A DNA stretch of 64,000 nucleotides from Tangfeifania diversioriginum (GTDB lineage: Bacteria; Bacteroidota; Bacteroidia; Bacteroidales; Prolixibacteraceae), in the NCBI GenBank assembly GCA_945873105.1, contig CAMCBW010000031.1, positions 1-64,000 of the forward strand, given 5' to 3'. The notes under the pieces were generated by a model. That model saw only the letters and a list, made by a program, of their open reading frames with translations. It did not search any database and was not told the DNA's origin. Shown piece by piece: positions 4,961 through 17,617 of the stretch; within the stretch, counting starts at the first letter, position 1, and every line of letters begins with the position of its first letter. The position numbers and the translations under genes were made by a program.

Positions 4961-5686
4961 TCATACTGCCACTGATTGCGTTTCCTCCACCTCTTTGCCT
5001 ATCCGCCTGACCTGGCAGATCATCCTGGAAAGGATGTAATCTTTCAGCTTGGATGCATTGGTCGACCGGTAGAGGATCTTGCCAACGCTGCAGATTTCGG
5101 TCAACTGGTCGTAAAGATCTTTCAGGAGGCCCCTGTTTTTTTGAACGTTGGCGTAACGTTGCGAAACCAGAGCGAACTTTTTGTCCATGTCTTCGTCCAG
5201 CAGCTTGCTGATAACTGTGAACCTCGCAATCAGCGCTGCCGACAATCCTTTGGTCATCAGATCATTCTTGTATTTTTTGATATTACCATCCACGATCTGC
5301 AGCAACAATAGTACGCTTTCCACATCGCGCTGCCTGACACTCTTGCGCAGTTGCACCAACCCAAAATCGGCGGGTGAGATCGGCACCTGGTTAGCCGCCA
5401 GCTTGAGGTAACCCTCCAGGTAATTGATGGGGAAAATGAGGTTATCAAGCATTTGGTACATGCGTTCGGTGATCACCTGTTGCTCCACCGTTTCAGAATC
5501 GGGTCGAACCAACTCTTTTACCACTTCAATCCTGGATTCCAGATCGGCCAGATAATGTGCATGATACCTGGGGGAATAGGCAGTGAAATCGCTTAGGTCG
5601 CGTGCCAGGTGATTGGCAGCAAACCTGCATAAAACGGGCAATTCCTCCTCTTTGAAGTCGAAATTGCAGCGAATGTTCAATCTCAT
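4961..5686 (-). CDS. Conserved protein of unknown function, paralogue 2
   Basis: This encodes 241 residues, predicted helical and soluble, with no recognised family. It matches the protein at 1460-2191 along its full length; by eye more than half of residues agree, including LARDLSDFTAYS, NQVPISPADFGL, RDVESVL and the LKDY region near the C terminus. It is convergent with the HIRAN gene, whose stop is only 13 bases away, with no obvious terminator in the gap. Its leader region is shared with the paralogue. The pair probably arose by a duplication of gene plus promoter. Confidence 0.75.
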   Translation of the reverse strand: MRLNIRCNFDFKEEELPVLCRFAANHLARDLSDFTAYSPRYHAHYLADLESRIEVVKELVRPDSETVEQQVITERMYQMLDNLIFPINYLEGYLKLAANQVPISPADFGLVQLRKSVRQRDVESVLLLLQIVDGNIKKYKNDLMTKGLSAALIARFTVISKLLDEDMDKKFALVSQRYANVQKNRGLLKDLYDQLTEICSVGKILYRSTNASKLKDYILSRMICQVRRIGKEVEETQSVAV

Positions 5687-6165: not shown

Positions 6166-6567
6166 CTACCTTGCTACCGTCCTAACGATCACCTCCAGTT
6201 CATCTGCGGCTTCCATCATCACCTTCTGGATGGCTTCAGACTGACCATGGGTAAAGATCTTTCCGTTGACCGTGGCCACATAGATCTTGCCATCTGCCTT
6301 TTCGTAGACAGAGATCCGGCAAGGCATCATTACCGAGACAATCCGTTCATCGCTTTTCTCCAACATGTTGCCCGAATAGGTTGGTTTGCAAATCTCGATC
6401 ACCTTTACAGGTCTGACAGGTTTGCCGGATTTGGCAAGTGTTGCCTGAAGGTCGTGGGTGGCAGGGTTTCCCCAATCCCGGTCGGTGGCTGCTGTTATAA
6501 GGAGTTCAACAGTTTCGTTGAACCCAAAGAGACTCTCTTTTTCAAATATTGGCTGAAGTTCCTGCAT
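6166..6567 (-). CDS. DUF302-domain protein
   Basis: This encodes 133 residues from the chosen ATG at 6567; an in-frame GTG at 6627 would add 20 residues that do not resemble the family. The sequence follows the DUF302 pattern: GFNETVELLITAATDRDW (the ETVE helix), VKVIEICKP, then MMPCRISVYEKADGKIYV. DUF302 proteins are small dimeric alpha/beta proteins of unknown function, often found with sulfur, selenium or thiol-redox genes. Here it lies downstream, on the same strand, of the thioredoxin-thioredoxin reductase fusion, but a strong hairpin at 6776-6823 separates the two, so co-transcription is doubtful. Confidence 0.8.
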   Translation of the reverse strand: MQELQPIFEKESLFGFNETVELLITAATDRDWGNPATHDLQATLAKSGKPVRPVKVIEICKPTYSGNMLEKSDERIVSVMMPCRISVYEKADGKIYVATVNGKIFTHGQSEAIQKVMMEAADELEVIVRTVAR

Positions 6568-6775
6568 GGCTTTACTATTAATGTATTGAAAATTTAGGAT
6601 TCTCTCCACTTGCTGTTTCAGAATCACCCTACTAAGTTAGCCCTATTTTCAGCTTTGCCTAACTTTTTCTATGAGATCGTTTAAATTTATAACACAGAGA
6701 ATATCTAACTATTTATCGAAACCAGAGAGCAAATAGAAATTTCTGCTATTTTGAATTTTCATTAGAGAAACCCCG

Positions 6776-6951: not shown

Positions 6952-8220
6952 TCAATCCAAATCCTTTGCAATGGATATCGCAGCGATGGTGCCATCTGCC
7001 ACGGCGGTGGTGATCTGGCGGTATTTTTTGCTGATCACATCTCCCACTGCATAGACATTCGGTATAGAGGTGCGCATCTCCTCGTCCGTTTTGATGTAGC
7101 CCCACTGATCGAGTTCCAGTTTGTCGGTAAAGAGACCCAGGTTGGGTTTCATGCCAATGAAAATAAAGACACCATCCCCTTCGATGGTCTTGACCTCTTT
7201 GGTGGTCAGATCTTCTACTTCCACCACCATGCGGTCGCCGACCTTCTGGAAGGATCTTGGCTCATGCAGGAAAATTGGGTGGATCTTCGGGTTGGCCAGC
7301 AGTTTGTCCTGCGCGGTTTTGTTGGCCGTAAAGGCCGCAAACTGGTGGATAATGGTGACCTTGGAGGCAAATTTGGAGATAAAGTCACTCTCCTCGACGG
7401 CAGAGTTACCTCCGCCAATGACAATCACCTCCTTGTCGACAAAATATTTGGCATCACAGGTGGCACAGTAGGAAATTCCCTTGCCTTTCAGCTCCCGTTC
7501 CCCTTTTGCGCCGGTAAGGTTGGGGGTTGTTCCGGTAGCGATGATGATCTTCTTGGCACGAATGGTCTCCATTTCGTCGATAACCACGGTACGGTTCACC
7601 AGGTCTACCTTCGTCACATCCACCGCTACCTTGAATACCGTTCCGCATTGCTTGGTCTGTTCAGACATGTTGTGGGAAAGCATGTATCCTGCCTGGGGAT
7701 CGATGAATCCCGGATAGTTGGATACTTCGTGGGTGGTGGAGACATGTCCGCCCGGTAGCGAGATATCCACCAGCACCGTTTTGATCTTGGCCTGACATAG
7801 GTACAATCCGGCAGTCAATCCGCCCGGACCACCCCCCAGTACGATCACATCAAAATCGGAGACTTGCGGTTTGATTTTACTCGTGATTTCGCTGACAGTA
7901 GCAGCCGGCAGCATGGCATTCAGGTTTTTGATGATTTCGCTACGTTTGATGCCGCCTGCCAGACGCTCGGTCACCTCTTTGCCTCCATCGAAGAAGAGCA
8001 GGGTTGGGGACGATTTTACCCCAAGCTTGTCAGACAATTCGCGGTTGGCCTGACGGTACATCTTTACAAATTTAATTTCATGGCCATACATCCCGGCAAG
8101 GGATTCAAATTTTGGAGCTACCGCTTCGCAAGGCGGACATTCTGTGGAATAAAAATCAAGAACGATTTTCCCTCCCTGCAATACTTCCTGTTCAAATTCA
8201 GAACTGTTGATCTCTTTCAT
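6952..8220 (-). CDS. Thioredoxin-thioredoxin reductase fusion
   Basis: This encodes 422 residues. Residues 1-105 are a thioredoxin domain with active site C28-P-P-C31 in place of CGPC, and a cis-proline at P72. Residues about 122-420 are a low-molecular-weight thioredoxin reductase: FAD site GGGPGG at 129-134, redox CATC at 252-255, NADPH site VIGGGNSAVE, and the closing YAVGD motif. It should pass electrons from NADPH via FAD and CATC to its own thioredoxin domain. The thioredoxin is at the N terminus, unlike the known mycobacterial fusion with the opposite order. It lies downstream on the same strand as the radical SAM cassette, separated by about 600 bases of repeats, and could keep thiols of that system reduced (inference). 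Confidence 0.93.
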   Translation of the reverse strand: MKEINSSEFEQEVLQGGKIVLDFYSTECPPCEAVAPKFESLAGMYGHEIKFVKMYRQANRELSDKLGVKSSPTLLFFDGGKEVTERLAGGIKRSEIIKNLNAMLPAATVSEITSKIKPQVSDFDVIVLGGGPGGLTAGLYLCQAKIKTVLVDISLPGGHVSTTHEVSNYPGFIDPQAGYMLSHNMSEQTKQCGTVFKVAVDVTKVDLVNRTVVIDEMETIRAKKIIIATGTTPNLTGAKGERELKGKGISYCATCDAKYFVDKEVIVIGGGNSAVEESDFISKFASKVTIIHQFAAFTANKTAQDKLLANPKIHPIFLHEPRSFQKVGDRMVVEVEDLTTKEVKTIEGDGVFIFIGMKPNLGLFTDKLELDQWGYIKTDEEMRTSIPNVYAVGDVISKKYRQITTAVADGTIAAISIAKDLD

Positions 8221-8823
8221 GTGGTTTTCTTATTATTGATATTTTAGATTCCTGGCTATGATTCCTTACCAGGATGATTTTCGATTTTGAATTTTCGATT
8301 TTCGATTAGGCTTCATTCGATATTTGTTTATTCCGTCCGCCCTTCGACTTCGCTCAGGGACCGGGACTTATTTCACTCTATGTTTTTAATACAGAATACC
8401 CCTTCGACTTCGCTCAGGGACCGGTATTTTTACAATTACTTGCTTCGTGCATGCTACCGCGGACGTTGGATTCCTTTCATTCATTGACCCCGGGCTATGA
8501 GGCTTTAACCCTTTCAGGGTTTAAAACCAAGTATTTTCGGGATACCACCCAGGGTTGCCCCTGCTGCCTCTCCGTCATCTCCGTCCCTCCGTCATTTTTC
8601 CGTCTTCCTTTCGTCTCCGTTTCCCCGTTTCTCCGTTTCAATATTCTAGAACAGCCACAAGAGCCGCCCCTACTATCTCTCCGTCATTTAGGTCCCTCCG
8701 TCATTTTTCCGTCCTCCCATCGTCTCCGTTTCCCCGTTTCTCCGTTTCAATATTTTCCCACCAACCTGAAGGACGCCCACAAAGGGTCGCCCCTGCTTTC
8801 CCTCCGTCATTACAGACTCTCCG
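8221..8823. other. Gene-free stretch of dispersed intergenic repeats
   Basis: Three repeat types are stacked here. CCCTTCGACTTCGCTCAGGG occurs twice, near 8339 and 8400. A longer element at about 8453-8520 (CGCGGACG ... CCCCGGGCTATGAGG ... AACCCTTTCAGGGT) recurs near 33717 and 39323. Repeated CTCCGTCATTTTTCCGTC / TCTCCGTTTC stretches fill about 8550-8830 and recur near 33930-34130. Open frames across the last type are low-complexity artefacts. Confidence 0.75.
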
Positions 8824-10176
8824 TCATTTTTCCGTCTTCTCTTCTTCCAGCATCTCTCCAAAATACGCCTTGAACCCGATCTCCAGCAGCTCCTTCACCG
8901 GCCTGCAATCGGGAGAGAGGATGGAGCCGTTCTTGTTTTTGGCCACCGAGCCGCAGCCACCGCCACAGGCGAGTTGAACGGAACAGTTCCTGCATTCCTC
9001 GATAGAGGTGACATCCCGCGACGCCCATTGGTGGATCAGTTGCTCATTTTTGGTGATTTCAGGATAGAAAGTACCCAGGGCCTCCTCTTCTTTGCCGACG
9101 GTGGCCGTACAAGAATAGATTCTGCCGGTATAGTCAAAGGCCCATTCCGATTTGCAGGCGGGGCATGCATCAAACAAGGGATCGGGCAGGGAACCGTTCT
9201 CGGAAAGATACTTGGCTACCGAATAGGAGGGTTTGTAAAACTCCAGGATATGAGGATGAACTTCGGTTAGTTCGAATATTTTTTTGAACAGCGAAATCCT
9301 TGTAAACAGCTGATCCGGTGTCGACTGACAGTGGTGCAGTTCGTAATTGCGTCCGATCTGTGTTTTGAAGAGCGGATGGGAGGTCCATCCCTTTTCGATG
9401 GCATAAGAGGCCAGTTCGGGAAGGTTCTCAATATTTTGTTTGTCAATCACCATCCTGAGGTTTACCGGAAAACCGGCTGCCAGCGCTGCGTCAATGCCCC
9501 GAACGATTGGCTCAAAAGTTGGGGATCCTCCTTTCAGGAAGCGTCGCTGGTCGTGAATGGTTTTGGTGCCGTCGAGGGTAATCTGTATCTCCCGGATCTT
9601 CCCTTTGGAGAGCAGTTCAATGTAATTTTCGAGGTAATAGCCATTGGTTACCACGCAAATATCGATTCCCGCCTCGTTCGACTTCTCCACCATCTGGGAG
9701 ATCAGCCCACGCTGGTGGGGTGTGTTTAAAAGTGGTTCTCCCCCAAAGATGGTGAGGTATTTGCGCCGGTTGGCCAGCTCTTTCCTGACGTATTCGAAGA
9801 AAGCCTCAATCAGTTCGGGGGTCGCACTCTGGTGCGGATTGGTGTACTCATCCTGGTAACAGTAACTGCAGCTGAAGTTGCAGCTGTAGTTGGGTACAAA
9901 AAATAGTTGCACCTCCTCGTCGTCCCGCTGGTCCACAAAATCAAAATAACGGTTGCGGTAGAGCTTCTTCTCTGCCTCGGAAGTGGTCAGGTAACCGTTT
10001 TCGGTCAGACCCTGAATCAGCTCCGGATCTGCTTCTTTCGAATGATCCTCCTCCATCAATAGATCAGCCTCTTTCCTGGTAAGCAGATCGGCATTCCCGC
10101 TCAACAGATTCACCACGAAATAGTCGTCGGAATCTGAGACTTTGGAGACAATATTGTGTTTTGATTTTACAACCAT
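8824..10176 (-). CDS. Radical SAM/SPASM peptide-maturase-like protein
   Basis: This encodes 450 residues from the ATG at 10176; a longer start would read through an AAAATC repeat. Residues 1-80 form a small N-terminal domain of the sort that binds precursor peptides (RRE/PqqD-like placement, inferred). The radical SAM core carries CNFSCSYC (CxxxCxxC), followed by the TIFGGEPLL motif. The C-terminal SPASM region has DACPACKSEWAFDYTGRIYSC and CRNCSVQLACGGGC, giving cysteines for two auxiliary 4Fe-4S clusters. Such proteins install thioether or C-C crosslinks in ribosomal peptides. A 32-residue cysteine peptide is encoded immediately upstream, with an ArsM-like methyltransferase before it, so this is probably its maturase. 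Confidence 0.85.
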   Translation of the reverse strand: MVVKSKHNIVSKVSDSDDYFVVNLLSGNADLLTRKEADLLMEEDHSKEADPELIQGLTENGYLTTSEAEKKLYRNRYFDFVDQRDDEEVQLFFVPNYSCNFSCSYCYQDEYTNPHQSATPELIEAFFEYVRKELANRRKYLTIFGGEPLLNTPHQRGLISQMVEKSNEAGIDICVVTNGYYLENYIELLSKGKIREIQITLDGTKTIHDQRRFLKGGSPTFEPIVRGIDAALAAGFPVNLRMVIDKQNIENLPELASYAIEKGWTSHPLFKTQIGRNYELHHCQSTPDQLFTRISLFKKIFELTEVHPHILEFYKPSYSVAKYLSENGSLPDPLFDACPACKSEWAFDYTGRIYSCTATVGKEEEALGTFYPEITKNEQLIHQWASRDVTSIEECRNCSVQLACGGGCGSVAKNKNGSILSPDCRPVKELLEIGFKAYFGEMLEEEKTEK

Positions 10177-10304
10177 AGCAATTTTAGATTTTAGATTTTG
10201 GATTTTGGATTGCGCTTCAATCAAACATTTCAGCCAACTGAAATGCGCTGATTATCTTTCCTATATTCGGAAATTGAAAATCTAAAATCCAAAATTAAAG
10301 AATA

Positions 10305-10346: not shown

Positions 10347-10445
10347 TTAGTCGTGGCATCCCACAACCGATTTGGAAGTCTTGGCACAGCACTGGGCTAT
10401 TGCCACGCTTTTCTGCGCTTCCTGCTTTTTAACCAAACTTTTCAT
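10347..10445 (-). CDS. 32-residue cysteine-containing peptide, candidate RiPP precursor
   Basis: ATG-to-stop gene of 33 codons. The product has a basic, soluble N-terminal half (MKSLVKKQEAQKSVA) and a C-terminal core AQCCAKTSKSVVGCHD with cysteines at positions 19, 20 and 30 and Ser/Thr residues between them. It lies between a methyltransferase gene and a radical SAM/SPASM gene on the same strand, the standard place for a RiPP precursor. A stem-loop follows its stop. Leader plus Cys-rich core fits a substrate for thioether formation. I know no family for it, and alternative readings (a small metal-binding peptide or chance frame) remain possible. Confidence 0.6.
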   Translation of the reverse strand: MKSLVKKQEAQKSVAIAQCCAKTSKSVVGCHD

Positions 10446-10498
10446 TTAGAATACAATTAATGAATGAATTACGAACTTATTTATTTGCTTAGAAAAGC

Positions 10499-11155
10499 CT
10501 ATTTTGAACCACAGCCGCAGGATTTACCGCTTGGTCTTTCCCCTGCTATGGTAAAACTGGAGACCTCTACCTTCCCTTTGGGATAGGGTTTGGACTCCTC
10601 AAAAATGGTGACAGACTGAAATCCTGCCTTGGAAAGGGTATCAAGGTACTCCTCACGGGTTACCGACCCTGCCCAGCACTCAGAAACAGCCACCGGATCA
10701 TTCCTGTATTCTTCAGGAACAGGGGAGGTTGCATAAATGTCGCTCACCACAAATCGACCACCCTTTTTCAATATCCGGAAGATCTCATTCCATACGGCAT
10801 CCTTGTCTGAAGCATGGTTGATGGTGCAATTTGAGATCACCAAATCGGCTGTTTGATCCGGCAATTCAATCTTTTCCAGTTCACTGCGGACAAATTTTAC
10901 GTTGTCTATTCCAAATTTGGCAGCATTTTCCCTGGCAGTTGCCAGCATTCCATCCGAGATATCTATGCCGTAGGCAAAACCTGTCTCTCCGGCTTCCTCC
11001 GCCATCCGTAGTACGTCTGTACCACGGCCGCTACCAAGGTCCACGCAGGTTTCGCCGGCTTTGACCTTCGAGTAATTGATGGCGCCACCGCAGGAAAGAC
11101 AGCAATCGGTCTTTGCAAGTTGGCTGTACCTCAGATTTATACTTGAATAATCCAT
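10499..11155 (-). CDS. ArsM-like SAM-dependent methyltransferase
   Basis: This encodes 218 residues with a Rossmann methyltransferase core: motif I CVDLGSGRGTDVLRMAE at about residues 37-53, GIDISDGML, DLVISNCTINH and LKKGGRFVVSDI. Sequence and layout resemble arsenite methyltransferases, including the late WAGSVTREEYLDTLSKAGF helix. Extra cysteines flank the core: TDCCLSCGG at residues 17-25 and a C-terminal SCGCGSK tail. It is the first gene of a minus-strand unit with a 32-residue Cys peptide and a radical SAM protein. No arsenic-resistance genes (arsR, acr3, arsC) lie nearby, so arsenic may not be the substrate; methylation of a peptide or thiol is an alternative. Confidence 0.75.
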   Translation of the reverse strand: MDYSSINLRYSQLAKTDCCLSCGGAINYSKVKAGETCVDLGSGRGTDVLRMAEEAGETGFAYGIDISDGMLATARENAAKFGIDNVKFVRSELEKIELPDQTADLVISNCTINHASDKDAVWNEIFRILKKGGRFVVSDIYATSPVPEEYRNDPVAVSECWAGSVTREEYLDTLSKAGFQSVTIFEESKPYPKGKVEVSSFTIAGERPSGKSCGCGSK

Positions 11156-11396: not shown

Positions 11397-11852
11397 ATGC
11401 AAAATTTCTTTGCTGACAATCTGACGAAGGATGAACTTGACCAGCTTTTTCAAAGTGATGAGAAATGCCTTGAGTTTATTGCTTCCATGAAATGGGGCAA
11501 GGAATTCGAATGCCGCAAATGTGGAAACGGTAATTTCTGTGCCGGGAAAACACCCTATGCCAGGCGGTGTACGAAATGCAAGAGTGAGGAATCGGCTACT
11601 GCCGGTACCATCTTTCACAACTGCAAGTTTCCGGTCAGCAAGGCATTTTACATTGCTTTTCAGGTCTGTAAGGGAAATGAGCCACTCTCCACCTATGAAT
11701 TTGCCCGGAGGCTCTCGTTGCGGCAGATGACCTGCTGGAATTTTAAATCAAAAATTACGGCTGCCCTGGATGCCCTTACCCATCTCTCCGATGAGGAAAA
11801 AAAGGATGCACGAAAGCTTTTTACCTTCGAGGAAGTGCCTAAAGTGCACTAG
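11397..11852 (+). CDS. Small zinc-ribbon protein related to IS1595 transposase N-terminus
   Basis: This encodes 151 residues. A zinc ribbon formed by CRKCGN and CTKCKSEES (about residues 39-64) and the helix-turn-helix-like region YIAFQVCKGNEPLSTYEFARRLSLRQMTCWNFKSKI match the N-terminal DNA-binding part of IS1595/ISXO2-type transposases. The DDE catalytic domain is absent: the frame stops at residue 151, and the following sequence is a hairpin, not a broken continuation. It may be a transposase remnant or a domesticated DNA-binding protein. It diverges from the methyltransferase/peptide/radical SAM unit, and both share the same promoter motif, which makes a regulatory role worth testing. Its last six codons lie inside the long hairpin. 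Confidence 0.7.
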   Translation: MQNFFADNLTKDELDQLFQSDEKCLEFIASMKWGKEFECRKCGNGNFCAGKTPYARRCTKCKSEESATAGTIFHNCKFPVSKAFYIAFQVCKGNEPLSTYEFARRLSLRQMTCWNFKSKITAALDALTHLSDEEKKDARKLFTFEEVPKVH

Positions 11853-11950
11853 AGTGCCTAAAGTGCCTATAGTTATGGACTCCAAACAATTCAAGGCAGT
11901 AGCATAAATACTTTAGGCACTTTAGGCACTCTAGTGCACTTTAGGCACTT
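11833..11950. repeat. 41-bp stem hairpin overlapping a gene end
   Basis: Positions 11833-11873 are the reverse complement of 11910-11950 with a single mismatch; the loop is 36 bases. Both arms are built from AGTGCCTAA and AGTGCACTA blocks. The left arm begins in the coding region of the zinc-ribbon gene, so its last residues and stop codon are part of the stem. Confidence 0.9.
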
Positions 11951-12087
11951 GTTCAAAAGGGAGCAAATGCCACAATCAATATATGTGCCTATTTTCATAA
12001 ATTCGACTTTTGGCCCAAAATTTTAAAAAAATCAAATATTTAACAAATTCCTAACATTCGTCATCCAATGTTAACGCAATATTTCCT

Positions 12088-12183: not shown

Positions 12184-12684
12184 ATGATTACACATGAAGA
12201 GATTTGCAGTGTCCATTCCATGACGGAAACAGAAAAGTATGGTTTGCTTGAGCAGGTAATGGACGATTATGACCGGAAGGAGAGCAACCTGATTCAGATC
12301 CTGCACATGGCTCAGGCCATTTTTGGTTTCCTGGCCCCCGAGGTTCAGTCTTTTATAGCTGAACGGATGGACATCCCCAACTCCAAAGTAAACAGTGTCC
12401 TCACCTTCTACTCATTTTTCTCGACCAAACCAAAAGGCAAATATACGGTTAGCATTTGCCTGGGAACAGCCTGTTATGTAAGAGGCGGGAAGGATGTAGT
12501 TAACAAATTGAAAGAGGTTCTCTCCATTGAAGTTGGGGAGACGACTGAAGATAAAATGTTCTCGCTTCAGGTGATGCGTTGCATTGGAGCCTGTGGTCTG
12601 GCACCTGCCATGACCATCAACGAAAAGGTTTACAAACAGGTAAATCCCAATAAGTTGCACCGCATCCTGGGGATGCTGAAGTAA
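12184..12684 (+). CDS. hydC: [FeFe]-hydrogenase NuoE-like subunit
   Basis: This encodes 166 residues of the thioredoxin-like 2Fe-2S family (NuoE/HndA/HydC). The cluster cysteines are C92, C97, C133 and C137, in CLGTACYVRGG and RCIGACGLAP. The preceding helical part with SKVNSVLTFYSFF is typical. It passes electrons within a soluble cytoplasmic hydrogenase complex and is the first of three closely spaced genes (49 bases to the next, then 18). A TAnnTTTG-like promoter lies 88 bases upstream. Length is normal for the family. Confidence 0.93.
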   Translation: MITHEEICSVHSMTETEKYGLLEQVMDDYDRKESNLIQILHMAQAIFGFLAPEVQSFIAERMDIPNSKVNSVLTFYSFFSTKPKGKYTVSICLGTACYVRGGKDVVNKLKEVLSIEVGETTEDKMFSLQVMRCIGACGLAPAMTINEKVYKQVNPNKLHRILGMLK

Positions 12685-12733
12685 TTTCTTCCACTTTTCT
12701 CAACTACATTCAGATAACCAAATTCATAAAGCC

Positions 12734-15700
12734 ATGTACATCAAATCTCTGAAAGATCTGAAAGAAATTAAATCATCGTTTCAGAAACAGGAGTCTCAAT
12801 ACCAATTCGTTGCTCATGTATGCTATGCAGCGGGTTGCCTTTCCTCCGATTGTCGCGAAGTAAAAGAGGCCTTGGTAAAGGCCTTGGAGCACGAGAAACT
12901 AGCCGACAAGGTAAAGATTAACCTGACTGGTTGTATGGGCGCCTGCTCATTAGGCCCGACCCTGATCATCAATCCGGGTCAGACCCTTTATTGCAATCTG
13001 AAACCTTCTGACATGCAACACATTGTCAAAGAGCATATCCGGAAGGGAAAAATTGCTACCAAATATTGCTACAAGGATCCGGAAACCGGCAAGGAGATTC
13101 CGAATATGCAGGAGATCAATTTTTTCAAACACCAAAAAAAGATCGTCCTCCGCAATTGTGGAACCATCGATTTTGCTTCTCTCGATGAATATGTCTCCAG
13201 GGATGGCTATTTCGCACTCTGCAAGGCCATCACAGAGATGACTCCCACAGCAGTGGTGGATGTAATAAAAAGATCCGGAATGCGTGGCAGAGGCGGGGGT
13301 GGTTTTCCGACAGGTCTGAAATGGGAGATGGCCTCCAAAGAGCAGAGTGACCAAAAATACATCATTTGCAATGCTGATGAAGGTGATCCGGGGGCATTTA
13401 TGGACCGGAGCCTGCTGGAAGGAGATGCTCATGCGGTGATTGAAGGAATGATCATAGGAGGTTATGCCATTGGGGCTACCAAAGGGGTGGTCTACATCCG
13501 GGCAGAATATCCCATCGCGATTGAACGGCTGACAATTGCCATGAAGGCAGCCCGGGAATACGGGTTATTGGGTGAGCATATTTTCTCTTCGGAATTCGAT
13601 TTTGACATTGAGATACGGATCGGTGCGGGAGCGTTTGTCTGTGGGGAAGAGACAGCACTGATGGCTTCTGTGGAGGGAAGAAGAGGTGAACCGACGCAAA
13701 AGCCTCCCTTCCCGGTACAATGCGGGTTATATGGCAAACCGACGGTCATCAACAATGTCGAGACATTTGGCAGCATTGCCCCCATTCTGCTTCAGGGGGC
13801 TGACTGGTTTGCCGCGATTGGAACAGAAAAGAGCAAGGGAACCAAGGTCTTTGCCCTGGCTGGTGACATCCGGATGAAGGGACTCATCGAAGTTCCGATG
13901 GGTATTGCACTGGGGAAAATACTGTTTGACATTGGCGGAGGCATACCAAAGAATAAAAACTTCAAGGTAGCTCAGACGGGTGGTCCTTCCGGGGGATGTC
14001 TGACGGCGGAGCACCTCAATACCTCCATCGATTATGACTCCCTGATCAAACATGGTGCCATCATGGGCTCCGGAGGATTGATTGTTGCAGATGAAGATAC
14101 CTGTATGGTGGATATGGCACGCTTTTTCATGGATTTTGTGCAGGAGGAGTCGTGCGGAAAATGTACTCCCTGCCGTTTGGGTACCAAAAGAATGCTGGAG
14201 ATCCTCGAACGCATTACTGTAGGTCAAGGGGAGGAAGGAGATGTTGAAAAATTGATCGAATTGGGTACCTCCATCAAGGAATCTGCTATTTGCGGACTCG
14301 GGCAAACGGCGGCTAATCCGGTATTGAGTACCATCAAATACTTCAGGAATGAATACAATGAACACATTCAAAAGAAATATTGCCGCTCGGGAGTATGCAG
14401 TGAAATGTTTATCTCACCCTGTCAGAATGCCTGCCCGGCAGGGGTGAATGTTCCGGGATACATTGCACTCATCGCTGCAGGAAGGGTCAAGGATGCCTAC
14501 AACCTGATCCGTCAGGACAATCCTTTCCCCTCCATTTGCGGAAGGGTCTGTACCCATCCCTGTGAGAGCAAGTGCCGTAGGGCTCAGCTCGATGAAGCCA
14601 TCGCGATTGCCGATTTAAAGAGATATGCAGCCGACTACGTGCTTAACTCTGATGAGCCTTACATGAACCTGATGTTCCAGAAAAATGGCAAATCCGTCGG
14701 TATTATCGGTGCGGGACCTTCCGGGCTCACTTGTGGCTACTATCTTTCAAGGCTCGGATACACCGTCGATATTTATGAAGAAAAAAGTGTTGCGGGGGGT
14801 ATATTGGCTTATGGAATTCCTGAATACAGACAACCAAAAGATATTCTCAAAAAGGAGATAGACTCTATTCTTCAGTCCGGCATCAACATTATCTACAACA
14901 CAAAAGTGGGAGAGCAAATCTCTTTTGCAGAACTTAAGGCAAAATATGGTGCCATCTATGTTGCCACCGGGACGCAATTGTCGCGCAAGATTGGCATCGA
15001 AGGTGAAGAAAAGGAGGGCATCTACCACGGACTCGATTTTCTGAAAGATATCAACCTCAAAAAGAATGTCAAGGTAAAAGGGGTGGTTGCGGTAATTGGA
15101 GGCGGTAATACGGCACTTGACGCTGCCAGATCAGCCTTGCGACTGGGAGCAGACAAGGTTCACATTCTCTACCGGAGAACACGGGAGGAGATGCCTGCCG
15201 ACCGGCGGGAGATACAGGAAACACTGGATGAAGGAATTATCCTTCACGAATTGGTGGCTCCTGTACGTTTTCTGGGAAACGGAGCAGTACGTCAGATCGA
15301 ATGTGTAAAGATGGAACCCGGCGAATTTGGCAAGGATGGAAGACGTATCCCGGTCAAACAGGCTGATTCGCACTTCACGCTCAATATTGACATGGCGATT
15401 CCTGCCGTTAGTCAATATTCAGATCTTCCCTTTGTGACAAAGAAGGATCTGGAGCTAACCGATTGGGGAACATTTGTGGTAGACAGTACCACCCAGATGA
15501 CTACCCAGGAGGGGGTTTTTGCAGGTGGAGATGTGGCACGTGGTTCAGATGTAGTGATTACAGCCATCGCCGATGGTAAAGTAGCAGCCAGATCCATTGA
15601 CAAATACCTGGGGGGAAAAGGAATCCTCAATTCTGGGGAGCCGATCGAACTTCCAAACCTGCATCCGGATGAGGCAAATACCATCGAGCACGAGCGCTTC

Positions 15701-15820
15701 CCGATGAGATACCTGGAAGATGAAAAGCGCCGAACCAGCTTCGAAGAGGTCGCACAGGGATTTCACAAACTCAATGCCATTGCCGAGGCAATGCGTTGCC
15801 TCCAATGTTCCAAACACTAA
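12734..15820 (+). CDS. hydB: NuoF-like hydrogenase subunit fused to a GltD/NfnL-like flavoprotein
   Basis: This encodes 1028 residues in five parts. Residues 1-110 are a thioredoxin-like 2Fe-2S domain (C30, C35, C67, C71). Residues about 140-540 are the NuoF core, with the FMN/NADH loop GRGGGGFPTGLKWE at 185-198, the SLBB region, and ESCGKCTPCRLGT near 472 for a 4Fe-4S cluster. In place of the usual C-terminal bacterial ferredoxin, residues about 555-640 carry the GltD-type double-cluster region (CQNACPAGVNVPGYI, CGRVCTHPCESKC). After that come an FAD fold (IIGAGPSGLTCGYYL near 657) and an NAD(P) fold (VIGGGNTALDAARSA near 786, with YRRTREEMPA suggesting NADPH). The protein could link NADH, NADPH and the hydrogenase, perhaps by flavin-based bifurcation (inference). 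Confidence 0.9.
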   Translation: MYIKSLKDLKEIKSSFQKQESQYQFVAHVCYAAGCLSSDCREVKEALVKALEHEKLADKVKINLTGCMGACSLGPTLIINPGQTLYCNLKPSDMQHIVKEHIRKGKIATKYCYKDPETGKEIPNMQEINFFKHQKKIVLRNCGTIDFASLDEYVSRDGYFALCKAITEMTPTAVVDVIKRSGMRGRGGGGFPTGLKWEMASKEQSDQKYIICNADEGDPGAFMDRSLLEGDAHAVIEGMIIGGYAIGATKGVVYIRAEYPIAIERLTIAMKAAREYGLLGEHIFSSEFDFDIEIRIGAGAFVCGEETALMASVEGRRGEPTQKPPFPVQCGLYGKPTVINNVETFGSIAPILLQGADWFAAIGTEKSKGTKVFALAGDIRMKGLIEVPMGIALGKILFDIGGGIPKNKNFKVAQTGGPSGGCLTAEHLNTSIDYDSLIKHGAIMGSGGLIVADEDTCMVDMARFFMDFVQEESCGKCTPCRLGTKRMLEILERITVGQGEEGDVEKLIELGTSIKESAICGLGQTAANPVLSTIKYFRNEYNEHIQKKYCRSGVCSEMFISPCQNACPAGVNVPGYIALIAAGRVKDAYNLIRQDNPFPSICGRVCTHPCESKCRRAQLDEAIAIADLKRYAADYVLNSDEPYMNLMFQKNGKSVGIIGAGPSGLTCGYYLSRLGYTVDIYEEKSVAGGILAYGIPEYRQPKDILKKEIDSILQSGINIIYNTKVGEQISFAELKAKYGAIYVATGTQLSRKIGIEGEEKEGIYHGLDFLKDINLKKNVKVKGVVAVIGGGNTALDAARSALRLGADKVHILYRRTREEMPADRREIQETLDEGIILHELVAPVRFLGNGAVRQIECVKMEPGEFGKDGRRIPVKQADSHFTLNIDMAIPAVSQYSDLPFVTKKDLELTDWGTFVVDSTTQMTTQEGVFAGGDVARGSDVVITAIADGKVAARSIDKYLGGKGILNSGEPIELPNLHPDEANTIEHERFPMRYLEDEKRRTSFEEVAQGFHKLNAIAEAMRCLQCSKH

Positions 15821-15838
15821 TCTGATAATCATTTTATT

Positions 15839-17617
15839 ATGGCACTTGTTACACTAACCATCAACAATAAAACCATTCAGGCTGAAGAGGGAACCACCAT
15901 CTTTGAAGCAGCCAAACAAAATAACATTCTCATTCCTCACTTTTGCTACCTGGAAAATGTCCACCAGATTGGCTCCTGCCGGATCTGTGTCGTGGAGGTA
16001 GAGGGAGCCAGAAACCTGATGGCTTCCTGCGTTTCTGAAGTAAAAGAGGGGATGGTAGTCCAGACCAATACTTCAAAGGTCAGAAAAGTAAGGAAAGTAC
16101 TTTATGAGTTGATTCTTTCTGATCATCCCAAAAATTGTCTTGGGTGCCACCGAAACCAAAATTGTGAGTTGCAGGATCTTGGAGAACAGATCCAGATAGA
16201 CAGCTTCCGGTTCGAAGGAGTAAAGTCCAAGGATGTGGTAGACAGCTCCAGTGCTTCCATTGTCCGCGACAGCTCCAAATGTATCCTGTGCCGTCGATGC
16301 GTCACGGTTTGCAACGAAATTCAGGGAATTGGGGTCATGAATGCCCATCACAGGGGTTTTGCCACCTTCATTGGACCTTCTGAAGACGAAAGTCTGGGCC
16401 ATTCCATCTGTACCAATTGTGGACAATGCATCGTAGTTTGCCCGGTGGGCGCATTGAAGGAGAAAGATTCCACCCACATTGTGTGGGAGGCGCTGTTGGA
16501 CAAATCAAAAAAAGTGGTTGTTCAGACGGCACCCGCTGTTCGTGCTGCACTGGGTGAGAAATTTGGATATGAACCCGGAACATTGGTGACCGGGAAAATG
16601 GCCGCTGCCTTGCATGAGTTGGGCTTCGACTATGTATTTGACACCAATTTTGCAGCAGACCTCACCATCATGGAAGAGGGTTCTGAGTTTCTGAAAAGGG
16701 TAAATGATCAGCTGAATAGTACTACGGGCGCAGTTTTGCCCATGATCACGAGCTGTAGTCCGGGTTGGATCAAATATATTGAGCATCAGTACCCCGACCA
16801 GTTGGGTCACCTTTCCAGCTGCAAATCGCCCCACATGATGCTGGGAGCCCTGGTCAAGACCTATTTCGCAGAGAAGATAAAGGTGGATCCAAAGGATCTC
16901 TTTGTGGTGTCAGTCATGCCTTGTACTGCCAAAAAATTTGAGATTACCCGACCTGAAATGGAATCCAACGGAATCCGGGATGTTGATGCGGTGCTGACCA
17001 CCCGCGAGCTGGCGAGGATGATCAAAGATGCCGGAATTGAATTTACAGAGTTGAAAGATGCCGAATTTGATTCCCCTCTGGGTCTTTCCTCCGGAGCGGC
17101 AGATATCTTCGGGACGACCGGAGGTGTGATGGAGGCTGCGATCCGTACAGTCTATGAGCTGGTTACAGGGAGGGAATTGCCTATGGAGGCGCTTCATGTG
17201 CAGCCACTGGTTGGATTGCAGCAGATCAAAACAGCCGACCTGCTGATTGAGAACCCCCTCGAACCTTATGCTTTTCTGAACGGAGTCACTGTCAAAGTAG
17301 CCGTAACAAGCGGGTTAAAGGGAGCCAACATGCTGATGGAAGAGATTCGTTTGGGAAAAAGCCCCTACCATTTTATTGAAGTCATGGGATGTCCGGGCGG
17401 ATGCATCAGCGGCGGAGGGCAACCACGTCCGGTGAATAATATGGTAAGGATGAAGCGCATGGAGGCTATCTACCGGGAAGATGAAGGAAAAAGCTTGCGC
17501 AAATCGCACCTGAATGAGGATGTCATGACATTGTACAAAGAGTTTCTGGGACATCCTCTGGGACATGTATCACATGAGTTGCTGCATACCAGTTATGTAA
17601 AAAGAAAGAAGAATTAA
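15839..17617 (+). CDS. hydA: [FeFe]-hydrogenase catalytic subunit
   Basis: This encodes 592 residues. N-terminal domains in order: 2Fe-2S plant-ferredoxin fold (CYLENVHQIGSCRICVVEVEG), the NuoG-type Cys/His motif HPKNCLGCHRNQNC, and two 4Fe-4S motifs (CILCRRCVTVC, CTNCGQCIVVCPVG). All three H-cluster signatures are intact: TSCSPGW near residue 302, VMPCTAKK near 359 and MGCPGGCISGGGQPRP near 516. It should catalyse reversible proton reduction in the cytoplasm using electrons from the HydC/HydB partners encoded just upstream. Maturases HydE, HydF and HydG are not in the window and must be elsewhere. Presence of this enzyme indicates anaerobic, probably fermentative life. Confidence 0.97.
   Translation: MALVTLTINNKTIQAEEGTTIFEAAKQNNILIPHFCYLENVHQIGSCRICVVEVEGARNLMASCVSEVKEGMVVQTNTSKVRKVRKVLYELILSDHPKNCLGCHRNQNCELQDLGEQIQIDSFRFEGVKSKDVVDSSSASIVRDSSKCILCRRCVTVCNEIQGIGVMNAHHRGFATFIGPSEDESLGHSICTNCGQCIVVCPVGALKEKDSTHIVWEALLDKSKKVVVQTAPAVRAALGEKFGYEPGTLVTGKMAAALHELGFDYVFDTNFAADLTIMEEGSEFLKRVNDQLNSTTGAVLPMITSCSPGWIKYIEHQYPDQLGHLSSCKSPHMMLGALVKTYFAEKIKVDPKDLFVVSVMPCTAKKFEITRPEMESNGIRDVDAVLTTRELARMIKDAGIEFTELKDAEFDSPLGLSSGAADIFGTTGGVMEAAIRTVYELVTGRELPMEALHVQPLVGLQQIKTADLLIENPLEPYAFLNGVTVKVAVTSGLKGANMLMEEIRLGKSPYHFIEVMGCPGGCISGGGQPRPVNNMVRMKRMEAIYREDEGKSLRKSHLNEDVMTLYKEFLGHPLGHVSHELLHTSYVKRKKN

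Follow-up and report, generated by a model that had tools for sequence, protein, structure and literature searches.

A small gene set present in several phyla appears to modify one nearly unchanging cysteine peptide, and the association of a precursor-maturase pair with an enzyme of the arsenite methyltransferase (ArsM) type, usually accompanied by a thioredoxin-thioredoxin reductase (Trx-TrxR) fusion, is strongly supported. The best-supported reading of this cassette is that the peptide would act as a metalloid carrier or substrate, with arsenic as the candidate element. If true, ribosomal peptide modification would be tied to metalloid methylation, two fields that are unjoined in the literature searched. 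The cassette lies on the minus strand of the window, i.e., the whole stretch of 64,000 nucleotides that was analysed, and comprises or adjoins the following features, the last of which is found in related loci:

10499-11155, minus strand: ArsM-like SAM methyltransferase of a compact type, 218 aa; C22, C110 and C160 align with C72, C174 and C224 of CmArsM
10347-10445, minus strand: precursor-like peptide, 32 aa; C-terminal core AQCCAKTSKSVVGCHD, leader MKSLVKK
8824-10176, minus strand: radical SAM/SPASM protein, probable peptide maturase; CX3CX2C, seven-Cys SPASM pattern and a predicted N-terminal RRE-like domain
6952-8220, minus strand: Trx-TrxR fusion, 422 aa; N-terminal thioredoxin part, CPPC
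6166-6627, minus strand: DUF302 protein, possibly an accessory; found nearby on the same strand in 21 of 45 loci
L032:4733-5194, L034:4771-5226, L045:729-1187 and others: regulators of the MarR family with two conserved Cys, upstream of the cassette

The initial annotation had described three minus-strand genes in a row with the Trx-TrxR fusion next to them, and each of these four frames was confirmed. The reading frame of the radical SAM protein begins with TTG at 10224, and the ATG at 10176 is the start that aligns with relatives. In the cassette proteins, Pfam models for radical SAM, methyltransferase, thioredoxin and pyridine nucleotide-disulphide reductase domains score above their cut-offs; no NCBIfam model exceeds its cut-off among the best 25 matches each for the methyltransferase, the radical SAM protein and Trx-TrxR. 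In the window, the core motif with a stop directly after it is found a single time, against none in 200 base-shuffled windows.

The surroundings hold several further features. Three copies of an 89-nt repeat lie between the radical SAM gene and Trx-TrxR (8557-8877), the third of which (63% identical) reaches into the 3' end of the radical SAM gene, a possible explanation for the variable C-terminus of the protein; two 30-nt copies of a CCCTTCGACTTCGCTCAGGGACCGG repeat follow at 8340-8429. On the other side, an inverted repeat of 48 nt with GTGCCTAAAGTGC-like units (11826-11957; 92% complementary, 36 nt between the arms) is located next to a divergent plus-strand gene for an IS1595-type zinc-ribbon protein (11397-11852); in 10 of the 45 loci a homologue of this gene is found on the strand that does not carry the radical SAM gene. 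Frames named by eye at 12184-17617 resemble a NuoE-type subunit, an iron-only hydrogenase and a 1028-aa protein in which a NuoF-like part is fused to a glutamate-synthase-small-subunit-like part, and two similar minus-strand proteins of 241-243 aa (1460-2191 and 4961-5686) received no function assignment by eye.

In a set of 50 peptides, eight core residues are invariant (A, C, C, A, K, G, C and H), which is partly by construction, since 45 of the 50 fit a pattern fixing CCAK, GCH and D/N; the codons used comprise all four for Ala, all four for Gly, both each for Cys, Lys and His, and all three stops. A larger set of 95 distinct peptides was collected with a pattern that fixed C, C, K, G, C, H, their spacing, a terminal D/N and A/S/T at -12, and left -16, -15 and -9 free. 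At the free positions, Ala occupies -16 in all 95, Gln occupies -15 in 92 (Leu in 3), and position 24 (equal to -9) is Ser in 92 and Thr in 3; within the constrained ones, -12 is Ala in 90 and the last residue is Asp in 94. In a pattern-free listing of short frames (<160 aa, at least two Cys, motif not imposed), 44 of 45 loci showed the motif, all with the identical core spacing. The core reads AQCCAKx[S/T]xxxxGCHD, behind a leader that mostly starts with MKSL[IV]KK. Three Cys are present in 82 of the 95 distinct peptides, and the remaining 13 carry extra Cys, mostly as a second CC pair ahead of the core.

A conserved short frame with a leader/core layout, placed beside a maturase, is the arrangement of a ribosomally synthesized and post-translationally modified peptide (RiPP), and a cassette-specific peptide is well supported. 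The initial annotation could think of no known precursor family for the peptide, and the model searches agree: no Pfam or PHROG model passes (a BTK-motif match in Pfam was discarded at 14.8, under the cut-off of 24), the peptide profile matches no PDB sequence, and six example peptides gave no NCBIfam match at E up to 10, so that a widely distributed gene of 28-53 aa has been missed by these curated models.

The putative maturase has the matching architecture. The SPASM cysteines noted earlier are confirmed by an alignment of 32 sequences, in which C101, C105 and C108 of the radical SAM motif, C340, C358, C397, C400, C406, C410 and C426 of the SPASM region, and also C285 are invariant (numbering of A3, row 1). 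The second Cys of a CPAC motif is lost in four sequences (L030, L031, L035, L049), which makes an open cluster site as in CteB conceivable. In the predicted model (pLDDT 89.9), the N-terminus forms a strand-strand-strand-helix domain, and CteB (5wgg) can be superposed on 402 of 452 residues, this domain included (Z 26.8, rmsd 3.8); a second CteB entry (Z 26.2) is followed in the fold search by anSME, ChlB, TigE and SuiB. The combination of a predicted RRE-like domain, CX3CX2C and SPASM cysteines is that of RiPP maturases. By sequence, the best-scoring named relative is NF038107 CefB, at 178.5 bits against a cut-off of 600, and the NCBIfam model for SCIFF maturases gives 84.6 against 425.

The cassette would have been a chance neighbourhood, according to the initial annotation, if homologues of the radical SAM gene never had a Cys-containing small frame and an ArsM-like gene nearby. 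When genome contigs were scanned with the radical SAM protein as the lone query, 45 loci were obtained (best segment 48-86% identical) from records titled Bacteroidia/Bacteroidales, Ignavibacteria, Spirochaetes, Neomarinimicrobiota, Deltaproteobacteria and Chitinispirillaceae, among others. A short upstream frame ending in the core motif is present in 44 of these loci (exception L046), and an ArsM-like gene lies upstream on the same strand in 43, the exceptions being L020, which starts at a contig end, and L046, which has none. A near full-length Trx-TrxR fusion was found in 40 (absent in L041-L044 and L046). Methyltransferase and peptide are separated by a median gap of 61.5 nt (42 loci), peptide and radical SAM gene by one of 73.5 nt (44 loci).

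Six whole-genome surveys with 1248 entries gave the same picture. Matches were accepted up to E 1e-60 (radical SAM protein), 1e-3 (peptide profile A2) and 1e-20 (methyltransferase), flanks of about 1.5 kb, longer for some, were taken around them, and many of the genomes are MAGs. With the window's genome counted once, the radical SAM protein was found in 73 genomes, with the peptide nearby in 70 and the methyltransferase nearby in 70; two of the three genomes in which these were missed are cut by contig ends (G657, G948). In the window's phylum, the radical SAM protein is present in 6 of 395 genomes, a separate search with the peptide profile returned the identical 6, and the methyltransferase adjoins in all five besides the window's own. 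In the window's order, 24 of 198 genomes carry the radical SAM protein and the identical 24 the compact methyltransferase; at the 23 loci besides the window, the peptide is present in every case, the methyltransferase 22 times in the short flank and once about 2.9 kb upstream. The phylum of the Spirochaete locus L034 has the radical SAM protein in 31 of 198 genomes, in some at just 37-44% identity, and peptide and methyltransferase each in 30 of the 31, the remaining one being G657. In the phylum of the Deltaproteobacterial locus L040 the protein occurs in 8 of 188 genomes, with both partners in all except G948, i.e., in 7; in that of L046 in 4 of 120, with both partners in 3; and in that of L030 in 1 of 149, again with both. 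Trx-TrxR is less constant within the stretches examined (19/23 in the order set, 25/31 in the Spirochaete set, where it is sometimes upstream of the methyltransferase, 5/8 in the Deltaproteobacterial and 2/4 in the L046 set).

Rearrangement has not broken the association: the peptide of G607 is encoded on the opposite strand at a distance of about 2.3 kb, and the radical SAM gene of G836 runs against both peptide and methyltransferase. The distance matrices of the three larger proteins (radical SAM protein, methyltransferase and Trx-TrxR) correlate in 37 loci at r 0.86-0.89, a level reached by none of 2000 permutations, which is partly expected, since the genomes are related and shared ancestry contributes. 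A chance neighbourhood is ruled out by the 45-locus counts, the separate genome searches and the shuffled windows, and a dedicated precursor-maturase pair can be regarded as very probable, in which the peptide would be modified by the radical SAM enzyme.

The one lone relative away from contig ends (L046:5499-7847, genome G589, a Chitinispirillaceae MAG) lacks both peptide and methyltransferase in its locus of 13 kb, and the peptide has no match anywhere in that genome; a relaxed pattern for a variant peptide gave unconvincing frames only. Upstream of its radical SAM gene is a MarR gene with two Cys, and downstream one of the DUF6132 type. Several other readings of the gene set were discarded. 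As to a mobile element, the plasmid matches to the radical SAM protein are two distant ones in Rhodococcus (27-28% identity), one of these stretches has neither methyltransferase nor precursor peptide annotated (several genes there are just "hypothetical"), and the methyltransferase has no plasmid match at 1e-40. As to a defence system, the viperin and Mad2 matches of the cassette proteins scanned (P0001, P0003) are weak. As to selenocysteine, the rejection covers G243, where the read-through TGA lies outside an intact 437-aa frame; TGA was also counted in the methyltransferase match of G432 and in two Deltaproteobacterial radical SAM matches.

The methyltransferase carries the link to metalloids. 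In the alignment with CmArsM, its C22, C110 and C160 fall on C72, C174 and C224, which we take to be the As(III) site, in agreement with PDB titles on the C72A and C224A mutants. Among 74 matches, some genomes contributing more than once, all three are kept wherever they could be aligned, down to 31% identity (C22 67/67, C110 71/71, C160 74/74). The resemblance to arsenite methyltransferases seen in the initial annotation stands; the weight given there to the CCLSCGG and SCGCGSK motifs does not, since the tail is variable or absent in relatives and C18, C19 and C37 vary, being lost in distant relatives above all. Retention of C22, C110 and C160 next to drifting other cysteines suggests that selection holds the metalloid site rather than these extra cysteines. 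An ArsM-type enzyme with putative As(III)-binding cysteines is well supported by these patterns, and ArsM ranks first among solved structures both by sequence and by fold (4fr0, Z 24.5). The assignment of the As(III) site is further supported by the statement that four catalytic cysteines are conserved in most ArsM enzymes (PMC8552651).

The enzyme nevertheless stands apart from other ArsM-like proteins. It scores 196.4 bits against the NCBIfam arsenite methyltransferase model NF008823 (cut-off 263), and in the order survey of 198 genomes the compact type, a class set by a gap in scores, reaches at least 198.6 bits (E at most 1.2e-58; 44-100% identity), whereas other ArsM-like matches reach at most 146.5 bits (E at least 1.6e-42; 30-43% identity). 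By eye, the distance from the N-terminal Tyr to the C72 equivalent is about 38 residues shorter than in the genome's own 269-aa ArsM. A second, non-compact ArsM-like match is commoner in genomes with the cassette (14/24 versus 50/174 others; Fisher p 0.005, a value that ignores genome size and relatedness). It is very probable that the methyltransferase works in the pathway of the peptide.

The cassette does not sit in arsenic operons. When the Acr3 and the ArsC of the window's genome were each used as query on flanks of up to 6 kb, a single one of the 45 loci had Acr3 and none had ArsC, and this lack of linked efflux genes is the chief argument against ordinary arsenic resistance. The window's genome has a separate ars operon (L056:1453-4545, G000:C41) with the 269-aa ArsM and proteins named by eye as ArsC-like and Acr3-like. 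Recurrent neighbours, mainly in Bacteroidales, are DUF302 (21/45 loci), DUF6132 (21/45) and a thioredoxin lipoprotein (15/45), all of which are thiol/redox proteins or have no assigned role. A MarR regulator adjoins the cassette in some Spirochaete, Deltaproteobacterial and Chitinispirillaceae loci; all 11 distinct MarR proteins found have the two conserved Cys, one near the N-terminus and one in a C-terminal C-[ED]-x-x-[ILF], which makes them candidate thiol or metalloid sensors. Four loci share an arrangement with a class III aminotransferase ahead of the methyltransferase and, as in L041:4005-11198, a TonB-dependent receptor and a DUF5074 protein after the radical SAM gene. By eye, two recurrent neighbour clusters resemble a TauE/SafE-type permease (3 loci) and a sulfide-quinone-reductase-type flavoprotein (5 loci). 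No peptidase or peptide exporter was recognised among the recurrent neighbours, for which annotation is incomplete: 100 of 178 selected representatives were scanned with Pfam and 25 of 154 matched families inspected, so that a rarer exporter or peptidase could be missed (ABC_tran was found in 3 and Peptidase_M19 in 2 of the 100).

These neighbours could also fit a different product. PQQ and mycofactocin are cofactors derived from peptide precursors, and by analogy the peptide might be the precursor of a redox or metal cofactor unrelated to metalloids, with the ArsM-like enzyme methylating the peptide itself at Cys, His or the C-terminal carboxylate. The near-invariant core with its fixed C-terminal GCHD is closer to cofactor RiPPs than to bacteriocins, 70 of the 73 genomes have a methyltransferase close to the radical SAM gene, and thiol-redox neighbours such as Trx-TrxR would be in place. 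However, the presumed As(III)-binding cysteines are kept where others drift, for which a peptide S-, N- or O-methyltransferase would have no obvious need, and no peptidase was recognised among the recurrent neighbours, as far as they are annotated; we consider this explanation unlikely, though it deserves to be kept in mind. Less probable still is an unmodified thiol chaperone, comparable to the As(III) chaperone ArsD, which would hand the metalloid to the methyltransferase with the radical SAM enzyme acting elsewhere. CC-x9-C-H could form a three-thiol site unaided, and the additional Cys seen in 13 of the 95 peptides, in most cases as another CC pair, would suit such a function, yet the radical SAM protein has the architecture of a peptide maturase, no other recurrent substrate candidate was seen nearby, and peptide and radical SAM gene occur in the identical 6 of 395 genomes. 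A secreted antibacterial peptide is very improbable, since the general resemblance of a radical SAM gene plus short peptide to sactipeptide and ranthipeptide clusters is outweighed by a core almost invariant across phyla, by the failure to recognise a recurrent peptide exporter or protease among the 100 neighbour representatives, and by a regulator and neighbours that hint at thiol stress.

The preferred reading is that the precursor-maturase pair yields an intracellular Cys peptide that works with the ArsM-type enzyme on a soft metalloid, a complete scheme to which we give even chances. Taken on its own, a soft metalloid as the substrate is slightly favoured, and arsenic as the specific element falls a little short of even odds; the chief argument for metalloid chemistry is that the putative three-thiol site is strictly kept. 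In this scheme, the cassette would make and use one dedicated, almost invariant Cys peptide. Judging from architecture and co-occurrence, the RRE-like domain of the radical SAM/SPASM enzyme would hold the leader MKSL[IV]KK, and the enzyme would modify the core. The likeliest product would be a non-alpha thioether of the ranthipeptide type from C19 (or C20) to S/T24. SCIFF peptides are reported to carry a thioether between Cys32 and Thr37, or alternatively between Cys32 and Thr34 (PMC8326336), and the equal i+5 spacing of C19 and S/T24 is both the basis and the limit of the proposed crosslink. The remaining thiols (C19 or C20, and C30) might then bind a soft metalloid, likeliest As(III), together with H31/D32, and the loaded peptide could serve as carrier, buffer or scaffold. 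The compact ArsM-type enzyme, by virtue of its conserved presumed As(III)-binding cysteines, would methylate the metalloid received from, or still bound to, the peptide, and the Trx-TrxR fusion, where present, might provide the electrons that keep the thiols reduced. Since no peptidase or exporter was recognised among the recurrent neighbours, the peptide is probably intracellular and may stay uncleaved.

A bolder version of the metalloid reading, which we regard as speculative and rather unlikely, is that the SPASM and ArsM-type enzymes together build a peptide with methylated or carbon-bonded arsenic (or antimony, selenium or tellurium). The centre would sit on the Cys-Cys...Cys-His core, and the product would act as an intracellular metalloid carrier or cofactor in several phyla. 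With a set of three or four genes and a near-constant substrate core, both the modification and the metal binding are directly testable.

The suggestion in the initial annotation that a link between an ArsM-like enzyme and a radical SAM-modified peptide would be new agrees with the literature searched, in which subscription papers are thinly covered. No paper was found there on a radical SAM protein with arsenite methyltransferase and precursor peptide, on a gene cluster of radical SAM protein, ArsM and thioredoxin reductase, on a thioredoxin reductase RiPP, or on radical SAM combined with arsenic and ribosomally synthesized or SPASM. The strings AQCCAK, CCAKTS and GCHD are absent among the literature matches listed, and the main text of a paper on RiPP mining in Bacteroidales contains neither "arsen" nor CCAK, GCHD or thioredoxin (PMC10352776).

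Among known systems, the SCIFF/ranthipeptide maturases CteB and Tte1186, thioether-forming SPASM enzymes, are alike in their RRE-radical SAM-SPASM architecture and in acting beside a short Cys-containing precursor. SCIFF peptides (TIGR03974) have six Cys in about 45 residues, in contrast to three in the core described here, and to our knowledge neither an ArsM-type enzyme nor Trx-TrxR is part of SCIFF loci. The CefB family (NF038107) matures peptides with Cys at every fifth position, a pattern that is lacking in the cassette peptide. ArsM arsenite methyltransferases share the fold and the three presumed As(III)-binding cysteines, but the cassette enzyme is compact, separated by score and coupled to a peptide. 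A radical SAM enzyme likewise goes together with ArsM in the pathways to arsinothricin (ArsL-ArsM) and arsenosugars (ArsS-ArsM), and ArsL, as described, forms a C-As bond via the aminocarboxypropyl group of SAM, likely with a single cluster and three conserved Cys (PMC8552651). In ArsL, CX3CX2C provides the sole conserved Cys, whereas the cassette enzyme has seven further invariant Cys in its SPASM pattern, an RRE-like domain by prediction, and a peptide partner. The idea of a modified peptide serving under metal stress has a parallel in the bufferins, which are MNIO-modified, copper-chelating RiPPs according to PMC12452194; these depend on another class of modifying enzyme, whereas the cassette peptide goes with an ArsM-type enzyme and Trx-TrxR.
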